The position numbers and the translations under genes were made by a program. Shown in pieces: positions 41,038-55,055 of a DNA stretch of 64,000 nt. A model generated the notes under the pieces. That model saw nothing but the letters and a program-made list of their open reading frames with translations. It ran no database searches and was not told the DNA's origin. Each line of letters opens with the position of its first letter. Position 1 is the first letter of the stretch. The DNA comes from Acrocarpospora catenulata (GTDB taxonomy: Bacteria > Actinomycetota > Actinomycetes > Streptosporangiales > Streptosporangiaceae): the NCBI RefSeq assembly GCF_018476525.1, contig NZ_JAHCST010000021.1:62001-126000 (forward strand), written 5' to 3'.

Positions 41038-41784
41038 ATGGAACCACCTCCGGACTTCGACCTGTGGGCGGATCTCTACCGCACCTGGACGCGGCTCGCG
41101 GCTGAGGATCCCGTGGAGATCGCCTACTACCGGCGGCTGGCCGCGATGGCCGACGGGCCGGTGGCCGACCTCGGGGTCGGCGTCGGGCGCCTGGCCAAGG
41201 AGATCAAACCGGACGTCGGGGTGGACATCTCGGCGTCGATGCTGGCCGAGGCACGCGACACGCTGGGCATCGGCGTGCGGCTGATCCAGGCCGACCTCGC
41301 CGACTACACCCTGCCCGAGCCGGCGGCGCTGCAGTACTGCGCGCAGAACACCTTCAACCACCTGCCGCGCGAGTCCGTCGCGCGGGCGCTGGCGTGCGCG
41401 TTCCGGAACGCCGCGCCGGGCGGGCGGCTGGCCTTCGAGGTGGTCCAGCCGCGGCCGGAGCGGCAGAAGGCCAGGGACGGGGTGCCCAGATTGCGGGCGT
41501 GGGACGGCGACCGGGTGGTCTCCGAGATCACCCGCATGCTCGACAAGCAGGGCCGCGACGTCGAGATGATCGGCCTGCTCGAACGGCTGGACGAGCACGG
41601 CGTCGTCACCGAGCGGAAGTACTACCCGCCCATCCGGTTTTGCTTCCTCACCATGGCCGAGGTCGCCGGGTGGGCGCGCGCGGCCGGATGGGAGATCGAG
41701 AGCGCGCAGGCGGGCTTCTCCGGAGGTCCGCTCGCCCCCGAGTCGTCCACCGGCGTCTGGTGCCTGCGCCGGCCGGCCGGGTGA
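41038..41784 (+). CDS. Class I SAM-dependent methyltransferase
   Basis: 248 residues. SAM motif I reads VADLGVGVGRLAKEI (about 42-56), with GVDISASML as motif II and AALQYCAQNTFNHL as motif IV. The second half has FEVVQPRPERQKARDGVPRL and a closing beta strand EIESAQAGFSGGP, typical of small-molecule or peptide methyltransferases. It opens a tightly coupled three-gene run: its stop overlaps the next GTG by 4 nt. The substrate is unknown; being first in the peptide-type locus it may act on the micropeptides or their products. Confidence 0.87.
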   Translation: MEPPPDFDLWADLYRTWTRLAAEDPVEIAYYRRLAAMADGPVADLGVGVGRLAKEIKPDVGVDISASMLAEARDTLGIGVRLIQADLADYTLPEPAALQYCAQNTFNHLPRESVARALACAFRNAAPGGRLAFEVVQPRPERQKARDGVPRLRAWDGDRVVSEITRMLDKQGRDVEMIGLLERLDEHGVVTERKYYPPIRFCFLTMAEVAGWARAAGWEIESAQAGFSGGPLAPESSTGVWCLRRPAG

Positions 41785-42932
41785 GCGCGATGGCGGAGCT
41801 GACCGCGGCCGATCTGGAGCAGGTCCTCGCCCTGGTCACCGGGCAGGACATGGAGACGCCGGGCGAGGTGCTCCACGTGGCCAGGCTGGAGCAGCCGTCG
41901 CTGGTGGCGACGCTGCTCAGCGTCTGGGAGGCGGAGGGACACGCGCTGGGACCGGCGCTGACCCACGAGCTGGCCGCGCAGCGCGGGCGCATGGACTACT
42001 ACCGCGACCTGCACGAGCGGCTGGCCGCCGAATGGCGGGATCCGGTGTCGCTCAAGGGCTTGGAGATCGCGGGACGCTATCCCAAGCCTCTGGTGCGGTA
42101 CATGAACGATCTCGACTACTGGATCCCCGACCGGGAGCGCTACTGGGAGGTCGCGGAGTGGCTGCTCGCGGACGGCTGGTCGACGCACAGCGCGACGTTC
42201 TTCCGCGGCGGCTCCGGTGGCGGGGAACCGGAGATGATCCTGAGCCTGCGCAGGCTGCCCGATGACCCGTACGCGTTGCCGTACGGGGTGGAGCTGACCA
42301 CGGTCGCGCTGCTCGGCGACGGAGTCGGGGTGCCGAACCTGGCGAGCCTGCCCGCCGCCTGCGCCGACCCCGCCGTCAAGAACCTCGTCGCGCTGCTCTA
42401 CGAGCGGTTCGAGCAGCCCTTCCGGGCGCGGGACCTGGTGGACACGGCACTGCTGCTGGACGGCGCGCCGCTGCCGGACTGCGCGCGCGCCGTCACCGCG
42501 CTCGGGCTCTGGCCGGAGTACGTCGAGCTGGCCGGACTGCTGGCGGACAGCCCGCTGGAGGCGCCCGAACTGCCGGGCGATCGGCGGGCGCTGGCGCGGG
42601 CCTGCCGGCGCAGGCGGCGGATCACGATGGCCGGGGCGGCGCGCCGGCCGTTCCGCCTGGCGGTGACGGCGCTGCAGCGCGGTTTCATCGGCGGAAGGGC
42701 CGGCAGGGCCTGGCAGGCGGTGACGAACAGGATGAGCGCGCGTGCGGCGCTGGACGCGGGGCTGATGCTGTTCGGCCTGCCCGTGGCGGGCGAGACGACC
42801 GGCGGGCTCACGCTGCGTGAGAGCGGCGGGGCGCTGTGGGCGCACACTCCCGTCGGGCCGTTCATCCTGGTGCACGGCGACGTGGTGGGCGAGGACCTGC
42901 TGGGCGGCGCGAGCGTGGTGGAGGTGCGATGA
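41781..42932 (+). CDS. Nucleotidyltransferase-like protein (NTase_5-like fold), role in peptide locus
   Basis: 383 residues from the GTG at 41781, set by the GTGA overlap (an ATG at 41790 is possible). The segment KGLEIAGRYPKPLVRYMNDL, then DYWIPDRERYWEVAEWLLAD, follows the pattern of PF14907-type nucleotidyltransferase-fold proteins: K-G, then a D-x-D-like DLDYW, then a helix ending in a Leu-rich turn. These occur in several RiPP and cell-envelope clusters, but their reaction is not settled. C-terminal residues (about 255-383) are Arg-rich and then beta-rich (GGLTLRESGGALWAHTPVGP). It overlaps the M16 gene by 4 nt. The family call is moderate. Confidence 0.6.
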   Translation: MSAMAELTAADLEQVLALVTGQDMETPGEVLHVARLEQPSLVATLLSVWEAEGHALGPALTHELAAQRGRMDYYRDLHERLAAEWRDPVSLKGLEIAGRYPKPLVRYMNDLDYWIPDRERYWEVAEWLLADGWSTHSATFFRGGSGGGEPEMILSLRRLPDDPYALPYGVELTTVALLGDGVGVPNLASLPAACADPAVKNLVALLYERFEQPFRARDLVDTALLLDGAPLPDCARAVTALGLWPEYVELAGLLADSPLEAPELPGDRRALARACRRRRRITMAGAARRPFRLAVTALQRGFIGGRAGRAWQAVTNRMSARAALDAGLMLFGLPVAGETTGGLTLRESGGALWAHTPVGPFILVHGDVVGEDLLGGASVVEVR

Positions 42933-44152
42933 ACGAGCCGGTACGCGGCGAGTTGGCGGGAGGCGTGCCCGTCTGGGTCGCGCACCGCCCGGGAGCCGGG
43001 GCCACCACGGTCACCCTGTGGTTGCGCGCCGGCTCCCGCCACGAGGAGGAGGACACGGCGGGTGTCACGCACCTGCTGGAACACGTCCTCATGCAGGCGC
43101 CGTCGGTGGACGGGCAGCGTCCGGTCGACCTGCTGGAGGCGCTGGGCGGCGAGGCCGACGCGATCACCAGCCGGGAGTATCTGGTGCTGTACGCGCGGGT
43201 GCCCACGGAGGAGACGCGCACGGCCCTGGAGGTGCTGGGACGCGCGCTGGCGGAGCCCGCGCTGACGGGCGAGGTGCTCGAGGCGGAGCGCAGGGTGGTT
43301 CGGGAGGAACTGCGGCTGGCCGCGGGCGATCCGGCCGATGTGGTGCACGACGTCTTCTTCGACCTGGCCTTTCCCGGCCACGCGATGGGACGCCCGGTGG
43401 GCGGGACGGCGGAGCGGGTCGCGCGGCTGGACCTCGACGCGCTGCGCCGCCACCACGCCCGGTTCGCGGGCACGGCCGGGGTCGTGGTCTGCGGGGGCGC
43501 CGAGCCGCGGGCCGTGCTGCGGGCGCTGGAGAAGGGGCCGCTGGCGGACCTGTCCGCCGTTGCGGTTCCCGGTGGCGTCGATGGCGTCGGCCTGCGGGCG
43601 CACGGCGGGCGGCGGGCGCTCGCGCTCAACAGCGACACGGCCGGGGTGGTGGTCGGCGGCGCGGCGGTGCCGTACGGGGATCGCCTGGAACCGGCCTGGC
43701 AGGTGCTGATGGACCTGGTCGCCGGGGCAGGGTCGGCGCTGCTCACCGAGGAGCTCAGGAACCGGCGCGGCCTGGCCTACGACATCTGGGCGGTGCCCGC
43801 GCCCTACCGCGACACCGGCACCTGGCGGGTGTACGTCGCCACGGCTCCCGAGCACGTCGAAGAGGTGGTGGACACCGCGACGTGGCTGCTGATCGAGCGC
43901 GCCGCGCGCGGCTGGCCACCGGAGGAGGTCGCGCGCGCGGCCAGGCGGGTGGCCGGGCTGCTCCGGCTGGAGACCGAGCAGTCCCTGGAGGAGGCGTTGC
44001 GGTACGGCAGGCACGGCCTGGTGGCCGGCCGTCCCGACTGGACCCTGGCCCGCGAGGCGGCCGCCATCGAGGCCGTCACCGCCGCCGACATCGCCGAGGT
44101 GACGCGCCGGGCCGCGGGCCCGCTCGCCATCGCCGTCGCCGGTCCCGAATGA
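42929..44152 (+). CDS. M16-family zinc peptidase (single-chain, PqqF/MPP-like)
   Basis: 407 residues from the ATG at 42929 (ATGA overlap with the previous gene). The inverted zinc motif HLLEH is at 48-52 within DTAGVTHLLEHVLMQAP; the third ligand Glu lies in the RRVVREELR helix about 75 residues later. The C-terminal M16 half (about 215-400) has the LLTEELRNRRGLAYDIWAVP segment. Bacterial M16 enzymes of this size work as a dimer or as an active/inactive pair and cleave small peptides inside a chamber. In RiPP loci they remove leaders (PQQ and others). Here it directly precedes two micropeptide genes. Confidence 0.9.
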   Translation: MNEPVRGELAGGVPVWVAHRPGAGATTVTLWLRAGSRHEEEDTAGVTHLLEHVLMQAPSVDGQRPVDLLEALGGEADAITSREYLVLYARVPTEETRTALEVLGRALAEPALTGEVLEAERRVVREELRLAAGDPADVVHDVFFDLAFPGHAMGRPVGGTAERVARLDLDALRRHHARFAGTAGVVVCGGAEPRAVLRALEKGPLADLSAVAVPGGVDGVGLRAHGGRRALALNSDTAGVVVGGAAVPYGDRLEPAWQVLMDLVAGAGSALLTEELRNRRGLAYDIWAVPAPYRDTGTWRVYVATAPEHVEEVVDTATWLLIERAARGWPPEEVARAARRVAGLLRLETEQSLEEALRYGRHGLVAGRPDWTLAREAAAIEAVTAADIAEVTRRAAGPLAIAVAGPE

Positions 44153-44234
44153 TTGGCGCTTTCCTGCCAACAACCTCCTTTCGCGCCGCCATCGCGGCAG
44201 AAATAGCGACGATGGGGAAAAGGAAGGAGGGGTG

Positions 44235-44291
44235 ATGGATCGGAGAATCCGACTTGTTCGCCGCCCCAAAGTCGCGAGGAAGAAGGGCTGA
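44235..44291 (+). CDS. Arg-rich micropeptide A (18 residues)
   Basis: ATG with an excellent GGAAGGAGGGG site 5 nt before it. Reads MDRRIRLVRRPKVARKKG and stops at TGA. Ten of 18 residues are Arg or Lys. It is a clear paralogue of the next micropeptide: MDR-x-x-R-hydrophobic-x-RRP-(K/R)-V is shared. It sits between the M16 protease gene (82 nt upstream) and the NDK-like gene. It is too short for normal gene callers. Candidate precursor or signal peptide, or an expressed basic peptide that binds nucleic acid or phosphate; the function is inference. Confidence 0.6.
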   Translation: MDRRIRLVRRPKVARKKG

Positions 44292-44293
44292 CA

Positions 44294-44353
44294 ATGGACC
44301 GTCACCGTCGTGTGGCTCGGCGTCCCCGAGTTTCGCAGTCGCGTAAGAGCTAA
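44294..44353 (+). CDS. Arg-rich micropeptide B (19 residues)
   Basis: ATG 2 nt after the stop of micropeptide A; AAGAAGGG within A serves as ribosome site. Reads MDRHRRVARRPRVSQSRKS. Against micropeptide A, eight of 18 positions are identical and several more are conservative, while the DNA has diverged, so selection on the peptide is likely. The NDK-like gene begins 35 nt later with its own AAAGGGAGCGG site. Confidence 0.58.
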   Translation: MDRHRRVARRPRVSQSRKS

Positions 44354-44388
44354 AGGCGTTCCAGGAATTCGAAGAAAGGGAGCGGCAG

Positions 44389-45237
44389 ATGACGGACATC
44401 GCATGGGACCGGACGGTTTTCTTCCTGTTTCCGCCTGATGCGGTGCTGCGTCATCTGTGCGCTCCCGTCCTCGCGGTACTGGAGGACCACGGGTTCGAGC
44501 CGGTCCGCTACGAGGTGCTGTGGCACCGGCCGCCGAACCAGGACGCCCTGCACGAACGCAAAATCACTTCCGTCTGGAAGGCCTACTTCTACCGGCAGGT
44601 CGACCTGGTGTTCGAGCTGGGCCCCAGCCTCGCCCTGCTGGTAGAGGACAGGTCGGCCGCGGTCGACTCCCACACCCGGCTGCGCGCCCTGAAGGGCGCC
44701 AGCGATCCCGCGTCGGCCGCCCCAGGCACCATCCGCCGCGACCTGCGCGGCGTCAACGTCCTGCTGGACATCGTGCACAGCTCCGACACCCCCGACGACT
44801 CCCGCCACGAGGCCGGGGTGTTCTTCGGCCCCGAACTCGGCACGCCGCTCCACGGCGACCAGCGGGAGCTCCGCGACCTGGTGGCGATGCTGGAGGCCGG
44901 TCATCCCCGGGAGAACCGGGAGTTCGACCAGGTGCGGGCGGGGCTGCGGTCGCGGGTGGTGGCCGCCGTCTGGCACGAGCTCGACGCGGAAGGGCGCAAG
45001 CTGGCCCCCGAACTGGCGGCGTCGTACCGGCCGGACGCGGGCGCCGAGCTGGCCGCGCTGCTGCCGGTCGGCCACCCGCTGGCGGCTCTGCTGGCCTGCG
45101 AGTTCCTGCCCGACCTGCCGGGGATCGACCTGCCACGCGCCGAGGCGCACCTGGCGGTTTACGGCGTGACGCTCGACCGGTGGGAACGGGCCGTGCTGCG
45201 CAGCTCGATGCTCTTTTCCCCGCTGCGCTCAGGCTGA
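44389..45237 (+). CDS. Divergent nucleoside-diphosphate-kinase-like protein
   Basis: 282 residues. Residues 1-150 follow the NDK fold: VFFLFPPDAVLRHLCAPVLA matches the first strand, KGASDPASAAPGTIRRDLRG matches the GATNPxxAxPGTIR segment, and IVHSSDT at 128-134 matches the active-site NVIHGSDS with catalytic His130. The usual Lys of KPDAV is Pro16, and the Asn three before His is Asp127. The C-terminal 130 residues are not NDK and I do not recognise them. It may be a repurposed phosphotransfer or nucleotide-binding enzyme of the locus. It is convergent with the GNAT gene and overlaps it by 9 nt. Confidence 0.65.
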   Translation: MTDIAWDRTVFFLFPPDAVLRHLCAPVLAVLEDHGFEPVRYEVLWHRPPNQDALHERKITSVWKAYFYRQVDLVFELGPSLALLVEDRSAAVDSHTRLRALKGASDPASAAPGTIRRDLRGVNVLLDIVHSSDTPDDSRHEAGVFFGPELGTPLHGDQRELRDLVAMLEAGHPRENREFDQVRAGLRSRVVAAVWHELDAEGRKLAPELAASYRPDAGAELAALLPVGHPLAALLACEFLPDLPGIDLPRAEAHLAVYGVTLDRWERAVLRSSMLFSPLRSG

Positions 45238-46290
45238 CAGCCTGGTGCTTTCCGCGCTCCGCGCGACGGCGTCCTCAAGAAGAGGGTCCAGCGCCAGCAC
45301 CCAGGCGGGCAACTCGTCCGCGCGGCATCCCCTGGAGATCTTGGCCTGCCAGCTGCCGTGCCCGTAGTGCAGGCGGGTGACGCCGGCCACCGCGGCGTGC
45401 CGTACGGGCTCATAGAACAGGGTCGCGAAGTAGGTGTGGCGGGCTTGCGCGCACCCGTACGCCCTGGCGGTGCTGACGCAGTACCAGGTGTCGCCGTGGG
45501 CCAGGAAGAGGCCGTAGCCGAGCAGGGCGCCGTCGTGTTCGGCGCCGAACAGCAGTGCGCCCTGGTCGCAGAGGTCGCCGAGCCGCGCGGCGATCGCCAC
45601 GGGGTCGGCGCCGCCGTTCCACTTGGTGGAATGCCCGCACTTGAGCGCCACCAGCTCCGGTGTCGGGCGGGAGATCTCCGACACCGTCAGCTTCACCCCG
45701 GCCGCGTCGAGCTGTCGCAGCTCGCGGCAGGCCTCCCTGCGCCGCTTGGCGGGCAGTCCGTCCAGGTACGCGGGGAACCCGCCGGCCGGGACGGGCAGCT
45801 CGCAGCGGTAGGACAGCGGGACCCGACGGAAGCCACGCCCGTCCAGGACCCGCTGGAGCTCGCCCGTCTCCGGTGGGGTGTAGAGAAAAGCGACCGCGCG
45901 CAGCCCGCGCCCGGCCGACCAGGTCACGATGTCCTCCACCAGCGCCGCGAGCGCCCCCGGTGCGCGGGCGGCGGGGCCGAGCGGGTGGCATTCGTACCCG
46001 GGCAGCATGACGACCAGGTGGGGGAACCAGTCCAGCCCTTCGCCAGGCCCGCGCGCGGCCCGCGCGGCGTCGCTGAGCGGCAGCTCCGGCGGGTCGCCGG
46101 TGAGGACGTACGGCAGGTCGAAGACCTCACCGGGGTGGGCTTCCGTCACGACCGTGCCGTGCAGTGACACGCCGTCCCCGGAGAAGGTGTACGGCACGCC
46201 GGGCACCCGCCCGCGCATGGCGGTCAGCCAGTGCCCGGTGGCGAACAGCGGCCCGCCGGGGACGGGGGTGTGCCCGGGTGTCGCGCGCAT
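45229..46290 (-). CDS. GNAT/FemAB-like (BioF2-type) acyl or aminoacyl transferase 1
   Basis: 353 residues from the ATG at 46290, which shares one base with the upstream gene's stop and has GGAGG before it. A double-GNAT layout: first half with RCELPVPAGGFPAYLDGLPA and KRRREACRELRQLDAAGVKL, second with GALLFGAEHDGALLGYGLFL and a YGHGSWQAKISRGC-type end. These match the peptidoglycan-bridge (FemAB) and BioF2 type, in which RRE-helix and GHG-strand segments frame the acceptor site. Family members transfer acyl or aminoacyl groups to peptides or lipids. Substrate unknown. Confidence 0.72.
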   Translation of the reverse strand: MRATPGHTPVPGGPLFATGHWLTAMRGRVPGVPYTFSGDGVSLHGTVVTEAHPGEVFDLPYVLTGDPPELPLSDAARAARGPGEGLDWFPHLVVMLPGYECHPLGPAARAPGALAALVEDIVTWSAGRGLRAVAFLYTPPETGELQRVLDGRGFRRVPLSYRCELPVPAGGFPAYLDGLPAKRRREACRELRQLDAAGVKLTVSEISRPTPELVALKCGHSTKWNGGADPVAIAARLGDLCDQGALLFGAEHDGALLGYGLFLAHGDTWYCVSTARAYGCAQARHTYFATLFYEPVRHAAVAGVTRLHYGHGSWQAKISRGCRADELPAWVLALDPLLEDAVARSAESTRLSA

Positions 46291-47303
46291 CAGACCTCCA
46301 GCAGGCAGGCGTCCAGGGCCAGCCGGGACAGGCCATGCCTGAGCTTGAAGACGTGGTTGCCCCGGCCGCCCTCGAAGACGGCGCGGCCCTCCGCGATCGC
46401 CTCCTCCACGGTGGCGGCGTGCAGCAGCGGATAGGGGCTGAAGCCGCCCACGACGTCGTAGTCCACGCCGCACGCCCAGGCGTGGAAGCGGATCTCATCA
46501 CGCAGACAGACGCCGGCCGCGATGAGTCGGTCACCCTGACGCACCTCGACCGCCACCGCCAGGTCCCCGAGCGCGGCGACGAAACCGGTGAACAGGTCGG
46601 TGGGGTAGAAGCCGCCGGTGCCGTGCCTGGCCGCGGTCTTCGCGCACAGCCCGCCGATCTCGGCCAGGTCGGCTTCGGCGGCAGGTCTGACCTGCCAGGA
46701 GACCCCGGCCTCGGTGGCCCTGCGCCGGTTACGCCGCAGGTTGGCCCGCCCGGATCGGGGCAGCGCCGCGAAGTAGGACTCGACGCTGTCCAGCCCGCGC
46801 AGGTCCAGCTGGAAGCGGTCCTCGATGTGCACGGCGGGGAAGCCCAGGCCGGTCAGGCCCGCGCGCAGGGGGGAGCCGTGGGGGACGTTCACGAAGCCGT
46901 ACCAGGCCGCGCCCTGGTCGCGGGCCAGTTCGCGCAGGGCGCCGACCGCCGCGCGCAGGCAGGACTCGTCGGAGAGTTCGGGGAGCCCGGCGTCGTAGCA
47001 GTGCCAGACGTGGCTCAGCAGGCCGAGCTCCTGCCCGGTGAGGGGGTAGCGACCGCGCAGCTGCCCGAGAGGGTCGAGGCCGTCGATCAGGGAGACGGGC
47101 AGCACGGCGACGGGACGCCCGCCCTCACGGATCACGAAATATCCGAAGAGTTTGACCTGTGTCAGCGGAAATCGCTCATACGCGCGTAAGTAGCGAGATC
47201 GATAGAAAACCGGAGCGCGTGATCCGGTGACAATGGAGTCCCATTCGACAATGTCAAGGTCCTCGATTGACGTAAAGATGCCAACTTCCAGATTTTTCGT
47301 CAT
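46290..47303 (-). CDS. GNAT/FemAB-like (BioF2-type) acyl or aminoacyl transferase 2
   Basis: 337 residues. N-terminal half (about 15-165) with WDSIVTGSRAPVFYRSRYLR. C-terminal half with FQLDLRGLDSVESYFAALPR, SGRANLRRNRRRATEAGVSW and RLIAAGVCLRDEIRFHAWAC, the standard BioF2/FemAB pattern. It ends GNHVFKLRHGLSRLALDACL, where the KLRHG motif is typical. First gene of a two-gene minus-strand unit, divergent from the PP-loop gene. Similar in design to the next gene product, suggesting two successive transfers. Confidence 0.75.
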   Translation of the reverse strand: MTKNLEVGIFTSIEDLDIVEWDSIVTGSRAPVFYRSRYLRAYERFPLTQVKLFGYFVIREGGRPVAVLPVSLIDGLDPLGQLRGRYPLTGQELGLLSHVWHCYDAGLPELSDESCLRAAVGALRELARDQGAAWYGFVNVPHGSPLRAGLTGLGFPAVHIEDRFQLDLRGLDSVESYFAALPRSGRANLRRNRRRATEAGVSWQVRPAAEADLAEIGGLCAKTAARHGTGGFYPTDLFTGFVAALGDLAVAVEVRQGDRLIAAGVCLRDEIRFHAWACGVDYDVVGGFSPYPLLHAATVEEAIAEGRAVFEGGRGNHVFKLRHGLSRLALDACLLEV

Positions 47304-47344
47304 ATCTGCCTTTCATTCGGTGTAAGAGGATATTAAGCAGATAT
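47302..47344. promoter_or_regulatory. Inverted repeat across the divergent start region
   Basis: ATATCTGC (47302-47309) and GCAGATAT (47337-47344) are perfect 8-bp arms 27 bp apart, placed exactly between the start codons of the FemAB-like and PP-loop genes. Candidate operator controlling both directions. Confidence 0.4.
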
Positions 47345-47362
47345 TTGAGCAAGGAGGAAGTC

Positions 47363-48568
47363 GTGGCGCATGTCGTCTTCCACAACAAAGTGGGCGGTTC
47401 GGAAACTCTGGAGGCCGCCGTCGGCCAGCCCCTGACGGACGTGCTGACCGCTCATGGCATCCCTACCAACGCCGTCATCACCCTGCGCAACGGGAAGATC
47501 GTCCCCGAGGAGACGACGATCGTCGGTGAGCACGACGTCATCGAGCTCCGCCAGGTGCGCCACTACGATCTCGACGTCACCCGCCGTCCGGCCAGGGTCG
47601 TCTACGGCGTCCCCGACCCGGTCTACGTGAAGTCGGTCATGTTCGACACCGCGGGCCAGCTGGAACACCGGGTGGAGCAGTTCGACGAGGAGAGCTTCGT
47701 CCGCTACGTGGAGGAGACCTTCGTCCAGAGCGTGCTCAGCCACGGCGTGCTGAACCAGGGTGACTCCGTGGTGATCGGGCTCTCCGGCGGGCGCGACAGC
47801 GTCGCCTTCCTGAAGCTGCTGGAGCGCACCAGGCACCGGCTGCCCGCCTTCTCGATCACGTCGGTGACCATCACCGGGCTGCCCGACTGGGAGGAGCCCG
47901 CGACGTTCGCCGCCGCCCGCGCCTCGGCGGAAGGGCTGGGCATCGACCAGGTCATCGTGGACGCCCACGACATCGAGCGGGTCTTCAAGCTGCGCCGCCC
48001 CTTCGTCGAGGCCATGAACTCCGTGGTCGGCGGCGAGTCGCGGCACCTCAACATGGTCGTCGGCCACCAGGTGCTCCGCCGCATGCTGGAGGACCACGCC
48101 CAGCGCATCGGCGCCGACACCGTCGCCTTCGGCTTCAACGGCGACGACCTGGTGGCGAGCATGGTCACCTGGATCACCAGCGGCTACCGGATGGGCGGCA
48201 TCCCGGTCCGGCAGATCGGCGGGATGCGGTACATCTTCCCGCTCTACCGCATCCCCAAGAAAGAACTCACCATCTACCTCGAGCTCGTCGCCCCCGAGCT
48301 CAACCGCCAGGGCACCCCCGGGCGCTTCACCACCGGGCCGCAGGAGCGGTCGATGGCCTACGCGATGGCCGACCACCTCTACGGCCTCTGGCCGGGGATC
48401 GACTACTACCTGTTCGAGTCCTTCGCCACCATGCAGCGGTACATGTTCCCGCTGGTGGAGGAGAAGTGCCGGGTGTGCGAAGGCGTCTACGTCCTGCAGG
48501 AGGGGGTGCGCAACCCGATCGACATCTGTGACGTGTGCGACTTCTTCGCCCGGCAGGAGTTCTCGTGA
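47363..48568 (+). CDS. ThiS/MoaD-like domain fused to a PP-loop ATP pyrophosphatase
   Basis: 401 residues from the GTG at 47363 (AAGGAGG 5 nt before; a TTG at 47345 is less likely). Residues 1-70 resemble a ubiquitin-fold sulfur-carrier domain (VLTAHGIPTNAVITLRNGKI, VGEHDVIELRQV). The PP-loop SGGRDS is at 141-146, followed by a TtuA/TtcA-like adenylating domain. Two CxxC pairs (369/372 and 389/392) form a C-terminal zinc finger. There are no cysteines elsewhere, so the iron-sulfur or catalytic Cys of tRNA thiolases are missing. It may activate a carboxylate or amide by adenylation for sulfur transfer or amide formation. First gene of the coupled run to 53680. Confidence 0.82.
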   Translation: MAHVVFHNKVGGSETLEAAVGQPLTDVLTAHGIPTNAVITLRNGKIVPEETTIVGEHDVIELRQVRHYDLDVTRRPARVVYGVPDPVYVKSVMFDTAGQLEHRVEQFDEESFVRYVEETFVQSVLSHGVLNQGDSVVIGLSGGRDSVAFLKLLERTRHRLPAFSITSVTITGLPDWEEPATFAAARASAEGLGIDQVIVDAHDIERVFKLRRPFVEAMNSVVGGESRHLNMVVGHQVLRRMLEDHAQRIGADTVAFGFNGDDLVASMVTWITSGYRMGGIPVRQIGGMRYIFPLYRIPKKELTIYLELVAPELNRQGTPGRFTTGPQERSMAYAMADHLYGLWPGIDYYLFESFATMQRYMFPLVEEKCRVCEGVYVLQEGVRNPIDICDVCDFFARQEFS

Positions 48569-50535
48569 CAGGTTGGTACGCCGACTACTTCACCGCCGAC
48601 TACTGGCGCTTCGCACGGCACGAGTACAACGCGGAGCGTACGGCGGGCGAGGTCGACTACCTGGTGAAGACGCTGGAGGAGCACGCGCCTGGCCGGCGCG
48701 TGCTCGACCTCGGGTGCGGGACCGGGCGGCACGCGGTCGAGCTGGCCAGACGCGGTTTCGAGGTCACCGGTGTCGACGTCTGCCGGTGGGCGCTGGACCA
48801 GGCGGCCGAGGCGGCCGGACGCGCGGGCGTGCGGCTCCGGCTGGTCGAGGCCGACCTGCTCGGCCCGGTCGAGCTGCCCGAGTCCGACGCCGTGATCTGC
48901 GTGCAGTCCTTCGGCTGGGGGCGCGACGAGCAGCAGCGCGCCCTGCTGCGCCGGGTGCGCGACCGCCTCTCGCCCGGCGGCATTCTGGTGCTCGACCACT
49001 CCAACGTGGCCGCCATCCTCGCCGCGTACCAGCCGGTCGCGCGGTTCGCGGCCGACGGGGAGGTCTTCGACTTCCTGCGCTCCTACGACCCCATGAGCGG
49101 GCGCAGCCGGGGCGAGCTGAAGGTCACCCGCGCGGACGGGACGACGGTGGTGCTCCGCGACGACGTGCGCCTGTACCTGCCGGTCGAGGTCGCGGCCATG
49201 GTGCGGGAGACCGGCTTCGACATCCTGCGCGCCGACGCCGGCTTCACGGCCGGCGCGCCGGTCACCGCCGCCACCCGGTACGTCCAGCTCGTGGCGACCG
49301 CCGGACAGCGCCCAGAGCCGGCCGTCCTCGGGCACGGCGAAGCCGACAGGCAGGGGGAGGCCGCCCCTGGGTGGCGCTCTGGCTCCGCTGGGCCGGGGTA
49401 CGGGGAGGTCGCCCCTGGGCGGCGGCGGTCCGCTCCTGCTGTGTCGGGGAACGGTGCGGGGATCGTCGAAGCGAGGCCGGTGGACCTGCGGTGGGCGCCC
49501 GACGAGGTGGAGTTCGTGCGCGGCGCGATCGAGCGGGCATGGGAGCAGATCGGCGGGGAGCCCGCCGAGGTCGCCAGACGGTACGCGCTCGACGACCCCT
49601 ACGGCGCCGCGCGCTCGACCCCGGTGCTCGCCGCCTGCTTCGGCGCCGAACTGGACCCCGGCCAGGTCGTGACGGGGGCGGGCACCACTGGGCTGCTCCA
49701 CGCGCTGAGCGCCCTGGCGGAACGCGGCACCCTCGCCCACGCCCTCGACTCCCATCCCGACCTGCCCGCCTGGGCAGCCCACCGGGGAGCCCGCCTCCTG
49801 CCCTTCGACCCGTGGGCCGACGGCTCCGCCCCAGACGCTGGGCTGGCCCACTCCGAATTGGCCCACTCCGAATTGGCCCACTCCGAGTTGGCCCGCTCTG
49901 GGTTGGCCCGCTCTGGGTTGGCCCGCTCTGGGTTGGCCCGCTCTGGGTTGGCCCGCTCTGAGTTGATCCTCATCGAGCGGCCGGGCATCCGCGGCGACCT
50001 GCTGCCGCTGGACCGGGTGGCCGCGCTCGCCGAGGCGGTGCACGCGGCGGGCGGGCTGCTGGTGGTGGACGAGGCGCGGGCGTCCTACCTCGGCCCGGGG
50101 GAGAGCGCGGTGCCGCTGGTCACGCGCACGCCCGGCCTGGTGGTGCTGCGCAGCGTGTCGAAGGGCTACTGCTGCGGCGGCCTGCGCGCCGGGTTCGCGA
50201 TCTCCTCGCCCGGCGTGGCGGCGGCCGTGCGCGCGCTCGTCGCGCCGCTGGGCGTCTCGCCCCTGTCGCTGGAGGTGGCGCTGGGACTGCTCGGCCAGGG
50301 CGACGTGTTCGGCCCGCTCCGTGCGGCGGTCCGGGAGGCCAAACCCGAACTGGTGGCCACGCTCGACGGGCTGGGCTGCCGGGTCGATCCGGGGCATCCC
50401 GAACTGCCCTGGGTGGTGACCGCGGACGAGCCGCCGCAGGGGGTGCTGGGACGGCGGCTGCCCGGCCTGACCCGGATCAGCGTGCCGCTGTCGGCGGCGC
50501 GCCGGGCCGCCCTCCGCGAGGTGGCGGGCCGATGA
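48565..50535 (+). CDS. Methyltransferase-aminotransferase fusion
   Basis: 656 residues from the GTG at 48565 (GTGA overlap). N-terminal class I methyltransferase (1-240, SAM motif [16 protein letters not shown] at 46-61). A low-complexity linker (about 250-305). C-terminal fold-type I PLP enzyme (about 306-656) with PLP Lys533 in [24 protein letters not shown] as the ring-contact Asp and [15 protein letters not shown] as the phosphate loop. Eight copies of a five-residue repeat interrupt the aminotransferase at 427-466. The fusion could install or methylate an unusual amino acid. It overlaps the next gene by 4 nt. Confidence 0.88.
49843..49962 (+). repeat. Eight 15-bp tandem repeats inside the aminotransferase domain
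   Basis: Eight in-frame units of the form YTGGCCCRCTCYGRR encode LAHSE x3, LAR SG x4 and LARSE. The four central units are identical at DNA level or nearly so, typical of recent slippage. The insertion lies between strand [12 protein letters not shown] and the strand [12 protein letters not shown] of the PLP domain, probably a surface loop. Confidence 0.9.
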
Positions 50536-52481
50536 GCGCGCCCGCCGTCGACGCGGCCGTACAGCAGGCGCACGCCCGCTTCGACGTCGACGCGGCCGTC
50601 AAGGACGTCGTCGAACTGGCCGCGCACGACCGCTACCAGGCCTCGGACGGGATCATGGCCGCCGCCGCGTACGTCGCCGAGCGCGCAGAACAGGCCGGGC
50701 TGCGGGAGGTGCGGCTGCTGGAGTTCGCCGCGGACGGGGACCGGCGCTGGTGGAGCTTCCGCGCGCCCGTGTCGTGGACGCCGGTCCACGCGGAGCTGGC
50801 CGGCGTGGTCGGCTACCCCGAGCAGCCCTACGCGCTGGCCGCCTACTCCGCGCCCACCCCACCCGACGGAATCTGGGCACCCGTGGTCCGGCTCGGCCAC
50901 GCCGAACCGGACCAGCTGCGCGGCGCGATCGTGGCGCACGACGATCCACGCGTGCCGGTACCCGTCGCGCTCGATCTGGCAGCCGGGCAGGGCGCGGCGG
51001 GCTTCGTCACCGACCAGCTCTTCGTCGCCGACCAGCACTCCACCGGGCAGGGCGCGGTGGGCTTCGTCACCGACCAGCTCTTCGTCGCCGACCAGCACTC
51101 GACCGGCCGGAGCGCGGGCCGGGTCGGCCGCATCGAACTGCGCCCCGGCGCCCGGCTGCCGGCCTTCAGCCTGACCCCGGGACAGCTGGCCGAGCTGGTC
51201 CGGCGCGGCCGTGCGCACGTCGTGGTGCGTACGCACAGCAGAGCGCCGATGCCGGTGGTGACCGGGCTGCTGCCCGGGGAGGAGGCGGCGGAGGTGCTGC
51301 TCGGCGCCCACCTGTGCCATCCCAGGCCGAGCGTCAACGACAACGCCTCGGGAGCCGCCGCGCTGCTCGGCGCGGCCACGGTACTGGCGGAGGCGGGGAG
51401 CCGCCGCAGGGGTGTGCGCTTCCTGTGGGCGCCCGAGTTCACCGGGATGGCCGCCTACCTGCACGACGCGGCGGCGTCGGTCCCGGTCGCCGCCGTCAAC
51501 GTGGACATGGCCGGCCAGGACCAGCGGCGCTGCGGCGGCCCGCTCATCGTGGAGCGTAGCCCCGACCACCTGCCGGGGTTTGTCAGCGCGCTGACCGAGC
51601 ATGTGGTGGCGGCGCTGCCGCAGGCCGCCCGCTCCTACTCGGGCGCGGTGGCGTGCGACACCTGGGCCTGGCGCGCCACGCCCTTCGTGGGCGCCTCCGA
51701 CCACAGCCTCCTGGTGGACGCCTCGATCGGCTGCCCCACCGTGACGCTCGGCCACTGGCCGGACAGGTTCAACCACAGTTCGGCCGACACCCTCGACAAG
51801 CTCGACCCCGGCGAACTGCGCCGCACGGCGGCCGTCGCCTGCGCCACCGCCGGCGTGCTCGCTGCGGCGGGCGGGCGGGATTCCGGCGAGCGGACGGAAC
51901 TTGAGCGGATCGCACTCGGCTGGGGCGCAAGCCGACTCCTGGCCTGCCTGTCCGTTACGAGTGGCGGGATCGAGCCGACGCGCGGGCTGCTGCGGCACCG
52001 CACGGCGGTGGCGCTCGGCGCGCTCGACGGCCTCGACGCACTGTACGGCCAGGGCGGCGATCAAGACGGCGATCAGGGCGGCAATCAGGGCGGCAATCAG
52101 GACGGTGAGCAGAGCCGCGAGCCGTCGCGGCGGTGGTTGGGCGACCTGTCCGCCCACGTCGCCGCCATGCTGCCGGAGGAGGCCGCACCCGAGCCGCCAG
52201 GCCGGTCGCTCCGCCGTACCTGGGCCGGACCGTTCAACCTGCGCGGCCTGGCGGAGGCGGCGGGCGAGCGGGGCAGGCGGTGGATCGACGCCCAGGCGGC
52301 GCGGGACCGCGCCGGGTCGTACGCGCTCATGCTCGCCCTGGCGCACGGCATCGACGGCGCGCGCGACCAGGCGGGCGTCGCGCGGTACGCGGAACACGCC
52401 GCCGAGTTACCAGTCCAGCCCAGGTTCGCGAGCGAATTCCTGGCCGTCCTCGTCGAGGCCGGCTGGGCGGAGGAGGTGTGA
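50532..52481 (+). CDS. M28-like/DUF4910-type aminopeptidase
   Basis: 649 residues. An N-terminal domain (about 1-230) with the layout of a PA-type insertion is followed by an M28 peptidase core: LLGAHLCHPRPSVNDNASG (about 257-275, His and Asp metal ligands), WAPEFTGMAAYLHD (Glu), VAAVNVDMAGQD (Asp) and a final His in FVGASDHSLL. The C-terminal 200 residues are helical and basic. It probably removes N-terminal residues from a peptide intermediate in the cytoplasm; no signal peptide is seen. Two tandem repeat tracts lie within it. Coupled by ATGA and TGATG overlaps to both neighbours. Confidence 0.75.
   Translation: MSAPAVDAAVQQAHARFDVDAAVKDVVELAAHDRYQASDGIMAAAAYVAERAEQAGLREVRLLEFAADGDRRWWSFRAPVSWTPVHAELAGVVGYPEQPYALAAYSAPTPPDGIWAPVVRLGHAEPDQLRGAIVAHDDPRVPVPVALDLAAGQGAAGFVTDQLFVADQHSTGQGAVGFVTDQLFVADQHSTGRSAGRVGRIELRPGARLPAFSLTPGQLAELVRRGRAHVVVRTHSRAPMPVVTGLLPGEEAAEVLLGAHLCHPRPSVNDNASGAAALLGAATVLAEAGSRRRGVRFLWAPEFTGMAAYLHDAAASVPVAAVNVDMAGQDQRRCGGPLIVERSPDHLPGFVSALTEHVVAALPQAARSYSGAVACDTWAWRATPFVGASDHSLLVDASIGCPTVTLGHWPDRFNHSSADTLDKLDPGELRRTAAVACATAGVLAAAGGRDSGERTELERIALGWGASRLLACLSVTSGGIEPTRGLLRHRTAVALGALDGLDALYGQGGDQDGDQGGNQGGNQDGEQSREPSRRWLGDLSAHVAAMLPEEAAPEPPGRSLRRTWAGPFNLRGLAEAAGERGRRWIDAQAARDRAGSYALMLALAHGIDGARDQAGVARYAEHAAELPVQPRFASEFLAVLVEAGWAEEV
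50985..51104 (+). repeat. 60-bp tandem duplication inside the M28-like gene
   Basis: Two adjacent 60-bp units (50985-51044 and 51045-51104) encode GQGAAGFVTDQLFVADQHST and the same with AVG for AAG. They differ at only a few bases. The 20-residue duplication keeps the frame. Confidence 0.9.
52056..52103 (+). repeat. 12-bp tandem repeats in the M28-like gene
   Basis: Four 12-bp units beginning GGCGATCA or GGCAATCA encode GDQD, GDQG, GNQG, GNQD, followed by a degenerate fifth. A flexible acidic loop and a slippage tract. Confidence 0.85.
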
Positions 52482-53680
52482 TGCGCGCGCTGCTGCGTGA
52501 CGGACGGTTCGTCCTGCTGTTCTTCGGCCAGTCCATCAACATGATCGGTGACCGGGCGCTGCTGGTGGTCCTGGCCATCTACGTCAAGGAGCTCACCGGC
52601 TCGGACTCGATGGCCGGGATCGTCTTCGTGCTGCTCTCGGTGCCGTCGTTCTTCGCGCCCCTCACCGGGCTGCTCATCGACAGGTTCCCCCGGCGGCTCA
52701 CCCTGATCGTCAACGACCTGGCGGCCGCGGCGCTGGTGCTCGCGCTGCTGCTGGTGCGGCATCCCGGGGACCTGTGGATCGTCTTCGTCGTGACCCTCGG
52801 GTACGGCTTCGCCAACCAGATCTTCAACGCCGCCAAGGGCGGGCTGCTGCACTCGATGGTCCCCGGCGAGCTGCTCGGCGACGCCAACGGGCTGTTCGGC
52901 TCGCTCGGCCAGGCGCTGCGGATCTTCGGCCCGCTGCTGGGCGCGGTCGTCTACGTGAGCCTCGGGCTGGGCGCGGTCGCCCTGCTGGACGCGGGCACCT
53001 TCCTGATCTCGGTGCTGGTGCTGCTGATGTTGCGGGGCGTGCCGGACCTGGAGCGGCCGGAGCCGGGCGAGCGCGGCCGGTTCACCGCCGACCTGGTGGC
53101 CGGCCTCCGCCACATCCTCGGCGACCCGGAGTTGCGCGTCGCGGTGCTGGCCGTGGGCGCGGCGCTGGGCGCGGCCGGGCTGATCAACACCGCCATGTTC
53201 GCCGCCGTCGACCAGGGCCTGGGCCGGTCCGCCGCCTTCATCGGGGTGGTCGGCGCGTTCCAGGGCGCGGGCGCCGTCGCGGGCGGTCTGATGGTCGGCA
53301 AGCTCATCAGGATGTACGGCGAGCACCGCGTGGCGGCGATCGGCTTCGCCCTCAGCGCGGCCGGTCTGGCCCTGGTGATTCCCACCACCGAGGTGACGAT
53401 GTGCCTGGGCGGCGTCTTCGTCGGCCTTTCCATCCCGATCTTCATGGTGTCGACGACGACGCTGGTGCAGCGCCGTACCGAGTCGGGATTGCAGGGGCGG
53501 GCGCTGACCGCGATGGACGCGGTGATCGATCTGCCGTTCGTGTTGTCGATGGCGGTGGGAGCGCTGCTCATACCTTTCGTGGAATTCCGCTGGGTTTATG
53601 GGTTCAGCGCGGCGGTTTTCGCGGCGGTGGCGATATATGTGCTGGTGGGGCGCAGGGAAAGAGTCCTGGTGGCGGGTTAG
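52481..53680 (+). CDS. MFS exporter
   Basis: 399 residues from the ATG at 52481, which shares its A with the previous stop and has GGAGGAGG before it. Twelve hydrophobic helices; loop 2-3 signature LLIDRFPRRLTLIVND, and loop 8-9 counterpart GLMVGKLIRMYGEHRVAAIG. No large loops. It resembles the enterobactin-exporter or macrolide-efflux branch (MFS_3). As the last gene of the coupled run it is likely to export the mature product or give self-protection. Confidence 0.92.
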   Translation: MRALLRDGRFVLLFFGQSINMIGDRALLVVLAIYVKELTGSDSMAGIVFVLLSVPSFFAPLTGLLIDRFPRRLTLIVNDLAAAALVLALLLVRHPGDLWIVFVVTLGYGFANQIFNAAKGGLLHSMVPGELLGDANGLFGSLGQALRIFGPLLGAVVYVSLGLGAVALLDAGTFLISVLVLLMLRGVPDLERPEPGERGRFTADLVAGLRHILGDPELRVAVLAVGAALGAAGLINTAMFAAVDQGLGRSAAFIGVVGAFQGAGAVAGGLMVGKLIRMYGEHRVAAIGFALSAAGLALVIPTTEVTMCLGGVFVGLSIPIFMVSTTTLVQRRTESGLQGRALTAMDAVIDLPFVLSMAVGALLIPFVEFRWVYGFSAAVFAAVAIYVLVGRRERVLVAG

Positions 53681-53743
53681 TGCCAGAAATCGGCACTTCT
53701 GTGGACGGCCGAGTTATGAATATTTAGCGTCTATTTCATCGCA

Positions 53744-53759
53744 GTGGACGAATGTCCAC
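53744..53759 (+). promoter_or_regulatory. Small hairpin before the 46-residue peptide gene
   Basis: GTGGAC (53744-53749), loop GAAT, GTCCAC (53754-53759), a perfect 6-bp stem 7 nt before AGGAGG of the peptide gene. It may influence translation or mark a processed 5' end. Confidence 0.4.
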
Positions 53760-53777
53760 CTATCGCAGGAGGCGCAT

Positions 53778-53918
53778 GTGATTCGCGAGACCGTCCAGAC
53801 GGTGAAAACCCCGATTATGACCACGCCGGAATTCGTCGAGAAGATGCTCGCCGCCCGTCAGGCGGTGCAGGTCGTGAAGTTCCGTACGACCTGCACTGAC
53901 TGCGTGCCGAACTACTGA
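53778..53918 (+). CDS. 46-residue candidate precursor peptide
   Basis: GTG start with AGGAGG 5 nt before it. The peptide begins VIRETVQTVKTPIMTTPEFV, has a helical middle (EKMLAARQAVQVVK) and ends FRTTCTDCVPNY. This leader-plus-short-tail shape with two Cys and Thr/Asp/Asn residues confined to the tail is that of a RiPP precursor. It has no signal peptide and no recognised domain. It lies 97 nt after the exporter gene, at the end of the coupled run, and is followed by a strong hairpin, which is typical for a highly transcribed precursor gene. The precursor role is inference. Confidence 0.62.
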   Translation: MIRETVQTVKTPIMTTPEFVEKMLAARQAVQVVKFRTTCTDCVPNY

Positions 53919-53954
53919 TCGTCGCGTCCGGTGCGCCATGCCGGTCCGGTGAAG

Positions 53955-53984
53955 CCCGGGATGGGGATCATACCCCGTCCCGGG
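53955..53984 (+). terminator. Hairpin after the 46-residue peptide gene
   Basis: CCCGGGATGGGG (53955-53966), loop ATCATA, CCCCGTCCCGGG (53973-53984). A 12-bp stem with one G-T pair. It overlaps the annotated start of the phosphodiesterase gene, so either this is a read-through attenuator or that gene starts at GTG 54000. Confidence 0.65.
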
Positions 53985-55055
53985 CGTTCCCTGTGTTCGG
54001 TGCCCGCCCGCGTCCTGGCGGCGCTGGGGCGGGCCGAGCGGGGCGTGGTCGTCCTGGCGGTCGACGGCCTGTCCTGGGAGACGGCGGCCACCGCCTGGCG
54101 CGGGGCCGAGCTCGACCGCCTCACCTCGACCTTCCCTAGCACCTCGGCGACCGCCTGGATGTCCTCCATCACCGGCGCGCCGGTGTCGGAGCACCTGGTG
54201 GTGGGCGCCGCGTACCGCGCACCGGCGGACGGATCCCTGATCAACGTGATCACCGGCCAGACTCTGGCCCTCCCCCACTCAGGGGAGGACGGGCCGGGAC
54301 GGCCGTCAGAAGGCGACCGCGGGCTGCCCACGCTGTTCGAGCGCGCCGCCGGCCTCGCGGAGACGGTGGTCGTGGGGCGCGAGCTGGACACCCTGACCAG
54401 CCCGTGGGCCGCCGCCCTCACCCGGGGCGCGCGTCGCGCCCCGCACGCGCACCCGCTCACCACCGACCCCGAGGACCTGGTAGCCGGGGTGATCGCCGAC
54501 GTGGCGGCGGCCGTCGCGGCCCCGCGTGAGCGCCCACTGCTGCTCTGGGTCTACGTCAACCTCGACGACCACGTGCACCGGCACGGTTACGACGCCCGCG
54601 CCATGAGCGCGTTGCGCCGGCTGGAGCGGCAGGCGTCCGCCTGGGCCGCCCACGGCTGGCAGGTGCTCGCCTACGCCGACCACGGCCAGGTGCCGGTCAC
54701 TCCGGACGCCGCCCTCGCGGCGCGCTGGGCCGCGCTGGACACCCCGGAACTGTGCGCGCTGCCTGGCGGCGGCGCGGGCCGGGTGCGCTGGCTCTACCCG
54801 CGCCCCCCGCTGGCCGGCCAGGTCGCCGAGCGTCTGGCCGACGCGCTCGACGGCCACGCGCTGGTGCTGCCCGCCGCCGCGCTGGCGCAGGCCGGGCTGG
54901 AACCGGCCACGGGGCCCATGCTGGAACGGCTCGGCGCCGTGGTGGCGGTCGCCACCTCGCCGCGCTTCCCGGTGCCCGACCCCGGCCTGGCCTACGAGCA
55001 CGGCGGCTGGAGCCCCGAGGAGATGCTGGTGCCGCTGGCGCGGTGGGCTCCCTGA
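53961..55055 (+). CDS. Alkaline-phosphatase-superfamily phosphodiesterase / nucleotide pyrophosphatase-like
   Basis: 364 residues from ATG 53961; GTG 53931 and GTG 54000 are alternatives, and none has a strong ribosome site. Metal and nucleophile motifs of the type I phosphodiesterase family: VVLAVDGLSWETAA (first Asp), TFPSTSATAW (Thr nucleophile), YVNLDDHVHRHG (Asp and His), YADHGQVPV (Asp-His) and EHGGWSPEEMLVPL (final His). No signal peptide is obvious, so it is probably cytoplasmic. Substrates may be phosphodiesters, phosphonates or nucleotide adducts. Its position after the peptide gene suggests a late step or nucleotide removal. Confidence 0.8.
   Translation: MGIIPRPGRSLCSVPARVLAALGRAERGVVVLAVDGLSWETAATAWRGAELDRLTSTFPSTSATAWMSSITGAPVSEHLVVGAAYRAPADGSLINVITGQTLALPHSGEDGPGRPSEGDRGLPTLFERAAGLAETVVVGRELDTLTSPWAAALTRGARRAPHAHPLTTDPEDLVAGVIADVAAAVAAPRERPLLLWVYVNLDDHVHRHGYDARAMSALRRLERQASAWAAHGWQVLAYADHGQVPVTPDAALAARWAALDTPELCALPGGGAGRVRWLYPRPPLAGQVAERLADALDGHALVLPAAALAQAGLEPATGPMLERLGAVVAVATSPRFPVPDPGLAYEHGGWSPEEMLVPLARWAP

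Follow-up and report, generated by a model that had tools for sequence, protein, structure and literature searches.

A conserved actinomycete locus pairing a ThiS/PP-loop enzyme with a small cysteine peptide: a candidate class of ribosomal-peptide pathway

The locus described in this study resides in a stretch of 64,000 nucleotides of the soil actinomycete Acrocarpospora catenulata (contig NZ_JAHCST010000021.1 of assembly GCF_018476525.1, forward-strand positions 62,001 to 126,000; hereafter the window), whose genome of 10.3 Mb belongs to a GTDB family that also includes Nonomuraea and Streptosporangium. It consists of a block of 14 kb (positions 41038 to 55055), in which a protein with fused ThiS-like and PP-loop domains and a cysteine-containing peptide of 46 residues (the Cys peptide) are accompanied by a nucleotidyltransferase (NTase), an M16 metallopeptidase, very short reading frames, a nucleoside-diphosphate-kinase-like (NDK-like) protein, the two transferases FemA and FemB, a methyltransferase-aminotransferase fusion (MT-AT), an M28-like peptidase, an exporter of the major facilitator superfamily (MFS) and a phosphodiesterase (Table 1). 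Genes were called from the reading frame and the GC content at third codon positions (GC3). A first-pass annotation, made from the letters of the DNA, had proposed this set as an unclassified peptide natural-product locus with two kinds of candidate precursor. All of the listed genes are present, and family scans, in which 10 locus proteins were compared to Pfam and NCBIfam and 10 further locus or flanking proteins to Pfam, matched every listed protein of the block except for the small peptides.

The matches of the PP-loop and ThiS domains are below the Pfam cut-offs (24.9 vs 27 and 20.0 vs 22.5 bits, respectively), and both assignments are backed by profile and fold comparisons. Active-site motifs are found in the M16 peptidase (HxxEH, 11/11), the aminotransferase (SK-GLRxG, 21/21) and, as a loose DxD, in the NTase (17/17), in totals that contain the query and the window's own open reading frame (ORF) and thus count the window twice. 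Strict patterns matched 16 of 22 M28 and 10 of 22 phosphodiesterase sequences, both of which are assigned by family match with no claim to an intact active site. In accordance with the first-pass annotation, neither a YcaO protein nor a lanthionine synthetase, radical SAM, lasso or non-ribosomal peptide synthetase (NRPS) gene was found in the Pfam and NCBIfam scans of locus and flanking proteins. The proposed coupling of most genes by start/stop overlaps applies to five pairs with shared stretches of 1-4 bases (NTase/M16, FemB/FemA, PP-loop/MT-AT, MT-AT/M28 and M28/MFS). The two fem genes are located on the minus strand. Short in-frame tandem repeats are contained in the genes of MT-AT (an LARSG.. 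run) and of the M28 protein (FVTDQLFVADQHSTG x2).

Table 1. Genes of the block and of its downstream flank (window coordinates)
Feature	Position	Strand	Remark
SAM methyltransferase MT1	41038..41784	+	family match; clear homologue (72-73%) in the two Nonomuraea loci only
NTP_transf_5-like nucleotidyltransferase (NTase)	41790..42932	+	PF14907, 33.5 bits vs cut-off 31.2
M16 metallopeptidase	42929..44152	+	HxxEH intact
28-aa micro-ORF	44149..44235	+	probably no gene; counterpart unrecognisable in two nearest loci
Micropeptide MDRRIRLVRRPKVARKKG	44235..44291	+	array family MDR-X5-RRP
Micropeptide MDRHRRVARRPRVSQSRKS	44294..44353	+	array family MDR-X5-RRP
NDK-like protein	44389..45237	+	His130 in 7/7 aligned
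FemA, FemAB/GNAT-type transferase	45229..46290	-	Lys318 in 5/5
FemB, FemX-fold aminoacyl-tRNA-type transferase	46290..47303	-	W276, N316, K320 in 10/10
ThiS-like/PP-loop fusion, NcsA/TtuA lineage	47363..48568	+	iron-sulfur ligand cysteines absent; C-terminal CxxC...CxxC
MT-AT, methyltransferase + CobD/HisC-like class I aminotransferase fusion	48565..50535	+	family match
M28/DUF4910 peptidase	50532..52481	+	family match
MFS exporter	52481..53680	+	family match
46-aa Cys peptide ending KFRTTCTDCVPNY	53778..53918	+	proposed precursor or scaffold
Type I phosphodiesterase/alkaline-phosphatase-superfamily protein	53931..55055 (start may be 53961)	+	family match
LuxR-type (GerE) regulator	55079..55744	-	62-63% in two Nonomuraea loci
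SARP/BTAD-NB-ARC-TPR regulator	56047..59115	+	71-72% in two Nonomuraea loci; partial matches, cut by fetched ends

The integrity of the block is reflected in a tblastn comparison of the window proteins to 15 fetched loci. In nine of them (L026-L034), the NTase, M16, NDK-like, FemB, PP-loop, MT-AT, M28 and MFS proteins, the Cys peptide and the phosphodiesterase are all present at identities of 37-91% (71-91% for the PP-loop protein), with FemA found in eight of the nine. Among the remaining six, four contain parts of the set (L035, L036, L037, L025), one the PP-loop gene alone (L038) and one shows no match (L039). On this comparative evidence, the block is a real, single conserved unit, and its recurrence in nine other loci, together with the prevalence of synonymous change in its peptides described below, illustrates that the gene set is more than a chance assembly. 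The bounds of the first-pass annotation thus enclose one conserved unit but fall short on one side, since in the two Nonomuraea loci the conservation extends to the LuxR-type and SARP regulators, corresponding to position 59115 of the window, with the SARP match cut by the ends of the fetched stretches.

Beyond these relatives, a wider scan added members from Streptomyces, Streptacidiphilus, Streptantibioticus, Nocardia, Planobispora, a metagenome-assembled genome of the Thermomonosporaceae and a contig labelled Legionella sp. (34% GC), whereas tblastn against plasmids identified a homologue on Geobacillus pGS18 (36% over its whole length) and more distant ones in Pantoea agglomerans, Xenorhabdus and Paenarthrobacter, besides one match in Bacteroides. 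The co-occurrence of homologues, on which the first-pass annotation had made its proposal depend, is thus found in Streptosporangiaceae, Streptomycetaceae, a Nocardia and more distant bacteria. When 29 loci were scored with hidden Markov models (HMMs) built from clear members, at E-values that are inflated, the aminotransferase domain, the M28 peptidase and the phosphodiesterase were found together in 21 (of the other eight, L045 stops at a contig edge), FemB in 21, the NDK-like protein in 18, the NTase in 17 and the M16 peptidase in 10. Although its PP-loop protein shares only about 22% identity with that of the window, the Pantoea plasmid combines this protein within 14 kb with a peptide, a phosphodiesterase, an aminotransferase, an M28/DUF4910 peptidase, an NTase of PF14907 and a transporter that weakly matches the MFS type.

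Within genomes, the distribution is sparse. Among 297 genomes of the order, 18 contain a PP-loop protein of this kind, 12 of them of the window type or relatives at 29-30% identity and six distant (E about 1e-11 to 1e-13), when up to 6 best candidates per genome were scored. At class level, profile A1 (E up to 1e-25) matched 5 of 394 genomes, at phylum level 2 of 396, counting the window's own genome, and in a Streptomycetaceae-type family 5 of 345, and among five genomes of the genus the window's PP-loop protein is found in its own genome alone. This scattered distribution fits a mobile or often-lost locus of secondary metabolism. A search for a phage origin gave no match in a phage collection or in viral contigs. 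Some loci contain additional genes: in the contig labelled Legionella (L052, 13051-14861) a glycosyltransferase and a PIG-L deacetylase are located between the MT-AT and M28 genes, which suggests that its product may be glycosylated, and elsewhere a metallophosphoesterase domain lies in frame with the NDK-like protein (L046) or genes are annotated as SurE (L065) or 'phosphorylase' (L025). Together with the recurring NTase and NDK-like genes, the latter may point to phosphoryl or nucleotidyl tailoring or to self-protection.

A central component of the unit is the ThiS/PP-loop protein. Profile comparison relates it to NcsA (6scy, 1.2e-14), TtuA and TilS, and its N-terminus weakly to SAMP2/ThiS-like proteins (0.002-0.03). 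The nearest fold of an AlphaFold2 model (predicted local distance difference test score, pLDDT, of 83) is again NcsA (E 7.6e-15, template-modelling (TM) score 0.72 by target and 0.55 by query length), followed by TtuA and thereafter by TilS, NAD synthetase and GMP synthetase, with asparagine synthetase appearing at rank 41. The protein shares the PP-loop fold, the SGGxDS motif and C-terminal CxxC pairs with the tRNA 2-thiolases NcsA, TtuA and Ncs6, and the ThiS/Urm1-type beta-grasp partner of these enzymes is here fused N-terminally, although in the alignment it does not contain a Gly-Gly end. Other features set it apart. TtuA requires three cysteines for its iron-sulfur cluster, and such a cluster is also described for NcsA and TtcA (PMC8584467). 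In the family consensus the NcsA segment CSFCGVIRR is aligned to VVGHQVLRR (CSFC to VVGH), a CxxC at the ligand site is found in 0 of 24 members, the third ligand position is not a Cys, and the three [4Fe-4S] cysteines of NcsA and TtuA are thus absent. The window's protein has no cysteines other than the four in its C-terminal CxxC pairs; these four are invariant among 14 aligned sequences but absent from two divergent groups of the family (groups 2 and 3) that contain other cysteines. The partner of the enzyme in the genome is a peptide gene.

With the ligand cysteines gone and only those of the CxxC pairs left in the window's protein, iron-sulfur-dependent thiolation by this protein was rejected. 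The same loss makes adenylation and ligation of a peptide likelier than thiolation, and by analogy we favour a mechanism in which the enzyme would adenylate its substrate for attack by an amine, a thiol or another nucleophile, as in TilS or in the asparagine-synthetase-like enzymes of ribosomally synthesized and post-translationally modified peptides (RiPPs); thioamidation via a persulfide of the protein itself is not favoured. Lasso cyclases, TsrC and the nitrile synthetase PesC are described as ATP enzymes of the PP-loop type, with a peptide carboxylate as the group that they adenylate (PMC13060819). Although of the same general type, the window's protein differs from such ligases, including those of lasso peptides, in its nearest fold, which is NcsA, and in its score for PF00733 (17.1 bits vs a cut-off of 21; 22.8 for the divergent L053 protein).

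The second component is the Cys peptide. Its profile, applied to up to 23 best candidates per genome at inflated E-values, detects it in 12 of the 297 genomes of the order, which are the same 12 that carry a PP-loop protein of the window type or its 29-30% relatives, and one genome (G275) contains two copies of both. Of the 33 non-redundant PP-loop loci, 31 carry a small peptide gene, among them those on the Geobacillus, Pantoea and Xenorhabdus plasmids. To obtain an estimate of selection, peptides were collected with the 33-residue leader alone as query, which yielded sequences from 17 of 26 loci; all 17 end in KFRT[TN]C[TS]DC[VL]PNx. The proportions of nonsynonymous and synonymous differences (pN and pS) are 0.037 and 0.407 in the last 13 codons and 0.277 and 0.503 in the preceding 22, which is consistent with a nearly invariant C-terminal core behind a freer leader. 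More divergent cores read FRTCCADPRASR in three loci (L053, L054, L056) and FRTCATDPITSW in L025, those of group 2 end in ..ICGASCETGAQ (L065) and ..ITGGSCETGAQ (L073), and those of group 3 in ..VEETLACSALTAHF and variants (7/7 loci). The invariant GMDRMT in six group-3 leaders (L018, L019, L020, L022, L023, L067; GIDRMT in L021) recalls the MDR start of the micropeptides described below. Six peptides compared to NCBIfam matched no family apart from one chance match at 0.089.

The Fem enzymes point to aminoacyl-tRNA chemistry. A model of FemB (pLDDT 91) is closest to FemX of Weissella (E 4e-14, best TM 0.72), and the streptothricin-type aminoacyl-tRNA-dependent synthases Sbb17/Sba18 are found lower in the list, with a tandem GNAT of the acetyl-CoA type from clavulanate biosynthesis (2wpw) in between at rank 7. 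In DhpH-C, Trp284, Asn325, Phe328 and Lys329 are reported to matter (PMC12945691). The equivalent W276, N316 and K320 of FemB, mapped by spacing instead of superposition, are located at near-matching distances in 10 of 10 sequences, and F319 is a Phe in six of them. With its double-GNAT fold, catalytic Lys and W...NxxxK pattern, FemB thus resembles FemX, DhpH-C, VlmA, PacB, Orf11 and Sbb17/Sba18 (PMC12945691), from which it differs by its position in a ribosomal-peptide locus, and we infer that the Fem enzymes would use tRNA.

A third feature, confined to part of the family, concerns arrays of mini-genes between the M16 and NDK-like genes. Ten loci contain 2-10 copies, 48 in total and 40 distinct, and one more, started by TTG, is found in L044; 15 further or repeated loci contain no such micropeptide ORFs. 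Exactly five residues separate MDR from RRP in 43 of 48. In the 36 distinct five-spacer sequences MDR is invariant save for one D-to-E exchange and positions 4-8 show an entropy of 2.0-3.1 bits, whereas the invariance of RRP follows from the pattern used. A stricter pattern applied to 22 whole loci, including the 64-kb window, identified such ORFs only within M16-NDK intervals. Two close pairs differ by synonymous and nonsynonymous changes in ratios of 8:1 and 8:3, and in the ten-copy array of L043, pN/pS values of 0.048/0.369 (codons 1-3) and 0.178/0.523 (codons 9-13) flank codons 4-8 with a pN of 0.623 and a pS of 0.626; as the micropeptides were picked by their motif, constraint at its codons is partly a matter of choice. 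The five variable codons appear either relaxed or diversifying, with too much saturation to claim positive selection. In L042/L050 and L043 the copies adjoin without gaps throughout their intervals, and a decayed copy in L032/L033 was left out of these counts of synonymous and nonsynonymous change. A Shine-Dalgarno-like match, loosely defined, precedes 47 of 48 mini-genes. In many cases the match is supplied by the AAGAAGGGC codons at the KKG end that precedes it, so that the conservation of KKG may partly reflect translational coupling. The micropeptides were too short for the NCBIfam search tool.

The pair of micropeptides at 44235 and 44294 belongs to this family, but in place of the two noted in the first-pass annotation there are three micro-ORFs at this position, and the 28-residue one at 44149 was rejected as a gene as inspection by eye revealed no recognisable counterpart in the nearest loci L026 and L027. 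The proposed two kinds of precursor are borne out by a nearly invariant Cys peptide and a hypervariable micropeptide family. Arrays are found in the same ten of 29 loci as the M16 gene; the loci are related, and the pairing is a correlation within them. As a strict marker of arrays, M16 is weakened by an orphan copy (see below).

Collectively, these observations lead us to propose that the locus probably turns a ribosomal peptide into an exported product by a RiPP-like pathway of an undescribed class. The Cys peptide and the ThiS/PP-loop enzyme, which travel together in the same genomes, are the core of the unit, and a conserved precursor gene next to modifying enzymes, as expected of a RiPP, is found in 31 of 33 loci and in 12 of 12 genomes of the order. 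As in the first-pass annotation, the biosynthesis of a modified peptide is thus something that we infer from sequence, with good support. In the proposed pathway, the N-terminal half of the peptide would act as leader, and the PP-loop enzyme would act on the FRTTCTD core by adenylating one of its carboxylates or carbonyls, perhaps that of the Asp invariant in the window-type group, opening the way for a nucleophile in the same reaction that its ancestors would have carried out on a tRNA base. FemB, and perhaps FemA, would transfer an amino acid from aminoacyl-tRNA to an amine of the intermediate, MT-AT would tailor it or supply the amine, the M28 peptidase would trim and the MFS protein export it, and the NTase, NDK-like protein and phosphodiesterase might serve tailoring or self-protection by adding or removing phosphoryl or nucleotidyl groups. 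The version found in Streptosporangiaceae would use M16 to process a second peptide set, the MDR-X5-RRP micropeptides, whose variable stretch of five residues would diversify the product or its uptake.

We hold this reading with moderate confidence, and several points weigh against it. The HMMs were built partly from the loci found and the peptide profile partly from members of the scanned genomes, with inflated E-values in both cases, so that for the latter the informative part is the detection in no other genome of the 297, and both genome scans scored the best candidates. In two loci (L052, L055) a PP-loop gene is present and no peptide was found, and the L066 peptide (..DICGGSTRVVSG) was accepted on position alone. 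The seven loci of group 3 contain the peptide and the PP-loop gene, with the other enzymes present in 0 of the 3 that have wide flanks. Cores vary between groups and the L021 peptide of group 3 does not contain a Cys, and it is thus impossible to name a universal modified residue. Genome G123 (L074, 9326-10510) carries an orphan M16 of 62% identity to that of the window with no array or cluster genes in 19.5 kb. Finally, the NDK-like protein contains FPPDAV in place of KPDAV, the canonical NDK motif.

The near-invariance of the last 13 residues is more readily explained by a scaffold or a single fixed product than by a RiPP that diversifies, and it is thus possible, if on balance unlikely, that the Cys peptide is a reusable carrier on whose C-terminal region amino acids are built and released as a small molecule, similar to the 3-thiaglutamate that is described to be built on the peptide scaffold TglA (PMC9016710). 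The resemblance of FemB to aminoacyl-tRNA transferases would agree with this idea, and a parallel to TglA-type scaffolds (pearlins) may be drawn from the small ribosomal peptide, its fixed C-terminus and an aminoacyl-tRNA-type enzyme. However, a LanB-like ligase (PEARL) is not among the scanned locus proteins, where the ligase is of another family, and no released small molecule is known. FemX-type enzymes acylate amines and are not known to extend a C-terminus, so that the chemistry would differ from that of TglA. A decidedly improbable alternative assigns the PP-loop enzyme to tRNA modification and the small ORFs to regulatory leader peptides, with the RP[RK] of the micropeptides stalling ribosomes. 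The closest relatives of the enzyme are indeed tRNA thiolases and TilS, the arrays are located directly 5' of the NDK-like gene, and the basic-x-basic triplet within RRP[RK] is of a type associated with stalling by macrolides. Against it stand the iron-sulfur CxxC lost in 24 of 24 members, with no Cys at the third ligand position of the consensus, and the gene order in nine loci, where the Cys peptide gene follows on the 3' side of the PP-loop gene, in four cases on the opposite strand (it is 5' in L034), an arrangement that precludes a role as its leader there. Up to ten separate leader ORFs would also be excessive, and the amino-acid sequence is kept while synonymous sites change.

Another improbable proposal, to which we give similarly little credence, would make a Clp AAA+ unfoldase the target of the product and the extra Clp-like genes of some clusters self-resistance copies, with ClpP-ADEP, described as a case of self-resistance (PMC12607617), as precedent. 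It derives from four loci. In L073 (7021-8421 and 11621-13399; genome G1031), which also has an extra enolase, a second ClpX scores 508.8 bits compared to 659.1 for the other copy. L066 (8308-9201) encodes a ClpX-like AAA protein of 297 residues adjoining the MFS gene, L052 (9507-9980) a C-terminal ClpX fragment whose distance to the PP-loop gene downstream is 20 bases, and L025 (13258-14532) a Clp_N-AAA protein with no BLAST match to the ClpX-like ones. Yet Clp-type genes are near the PP-loop gene in only 4 of 33 loci, all divergent, and within the fetched stretches in 0 of 17 loci with the FRT[TN]C[TS]DC peptide; the additional enolase of L073 implies that either or neither may be the target, and a Clp protein might take part in processing instead. 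The window's own genome contains two clpX genes (G000:C15:7449-8651 and C1:344578-345777; 670 and 631 bits), both outside the window. The NTase and phosphodiesterase genes and the scattered distribution might also recall an anti-phage defence or toxin-immunity island in which these two and the NDK-like protein serve nucleotide signalling. We consider this very improbable, given that among 10 proteins compared to PADLOC families the two methyltransferase-bearing ones alone matched and that an MFS exporter and a SARP regulator fit secondary metabolism.

Returning to the favoured RiPP-like pathway, we found, as the first-pass annotation had stated, no named class that fits, neither in the family scans nor in the open-access literature. 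Daptides, whose described steps involve a methyltransferase and a pyridoxal-phosphate (PLP) aminotransferase (PMC12670281), share this pair of enzymes near a small peptide. They differ in that the methyltransferases score 59.7 and 44.9 bits here vs a daptide-model cut-off of 175 and that a daptide-type oxidative decarboxylase is not among the matches, and the best NCBIfam match of the aminotransferase domain is CobD (72.6 bits vs a cut-off of 290.55). Similarly, the YcaO-TfuA pair described for thioamitides (PMC8120280) was not found in the scans of locus proteins. A described class that matches the locus was not found in the open-access literature, with subscription papers outside its scope. 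That literature contains no paper with both 'PP-loop' and 'RiPPs', and among the listed 20 of 23 papers, all of which matched pGS18, none contains the core peptide strings. The locus is thus a candidate for a new class within ribosomal-peptide pathways.

Two neighbouring features of the window fall outside of this unit. A large M14 carboxypeptidase with chitobiase-type and Ig-like domains is encoded just upstream of the block (35751-39002) and was counted as external since it found no match in the loci of 15 relatives. At 3156-3289 on the minus strand, a c-di-AMP riboswitch (RF00379, 90.8 bits) is located just 5' of a minus-strand gene (2178-3143).

In its most far-reaching form, which is speculative and which we consider doubtful, the new class would comprise a tRNA thiolase that has lost its iron-sulfur cluster to become a peptide-activating ligase, distributed from Streptomyces to Geobacillus, Pantoea and Xenorhabdus, with FemX-type enzymes extending the intermediate in an aminoacyl-tRNA-dependent manner, the Streptosporangiaceae arrays of up to ten micropeptides, each translated separately, serving as built-in partner library cut by a dedicated M16 peptidase, and some members attacking Clp unfoldases. 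If the proposed pathway is correct, the PP-loop lineage of tRNA thiolases would be a source of peptide-modifying enzymes and would provide a handle for genome mining that class-specific RiPP tools may miss, and through FemX-type enzymes ribosomal peptides would gain a link to aminoacyl-tRNA chemistry that needs no LanB-like ligase. As a natural case, the micropeptide arrays would show many tiny genes that vary five residues inside a fixed frame, and the Clp-like genes hint at a possible target.

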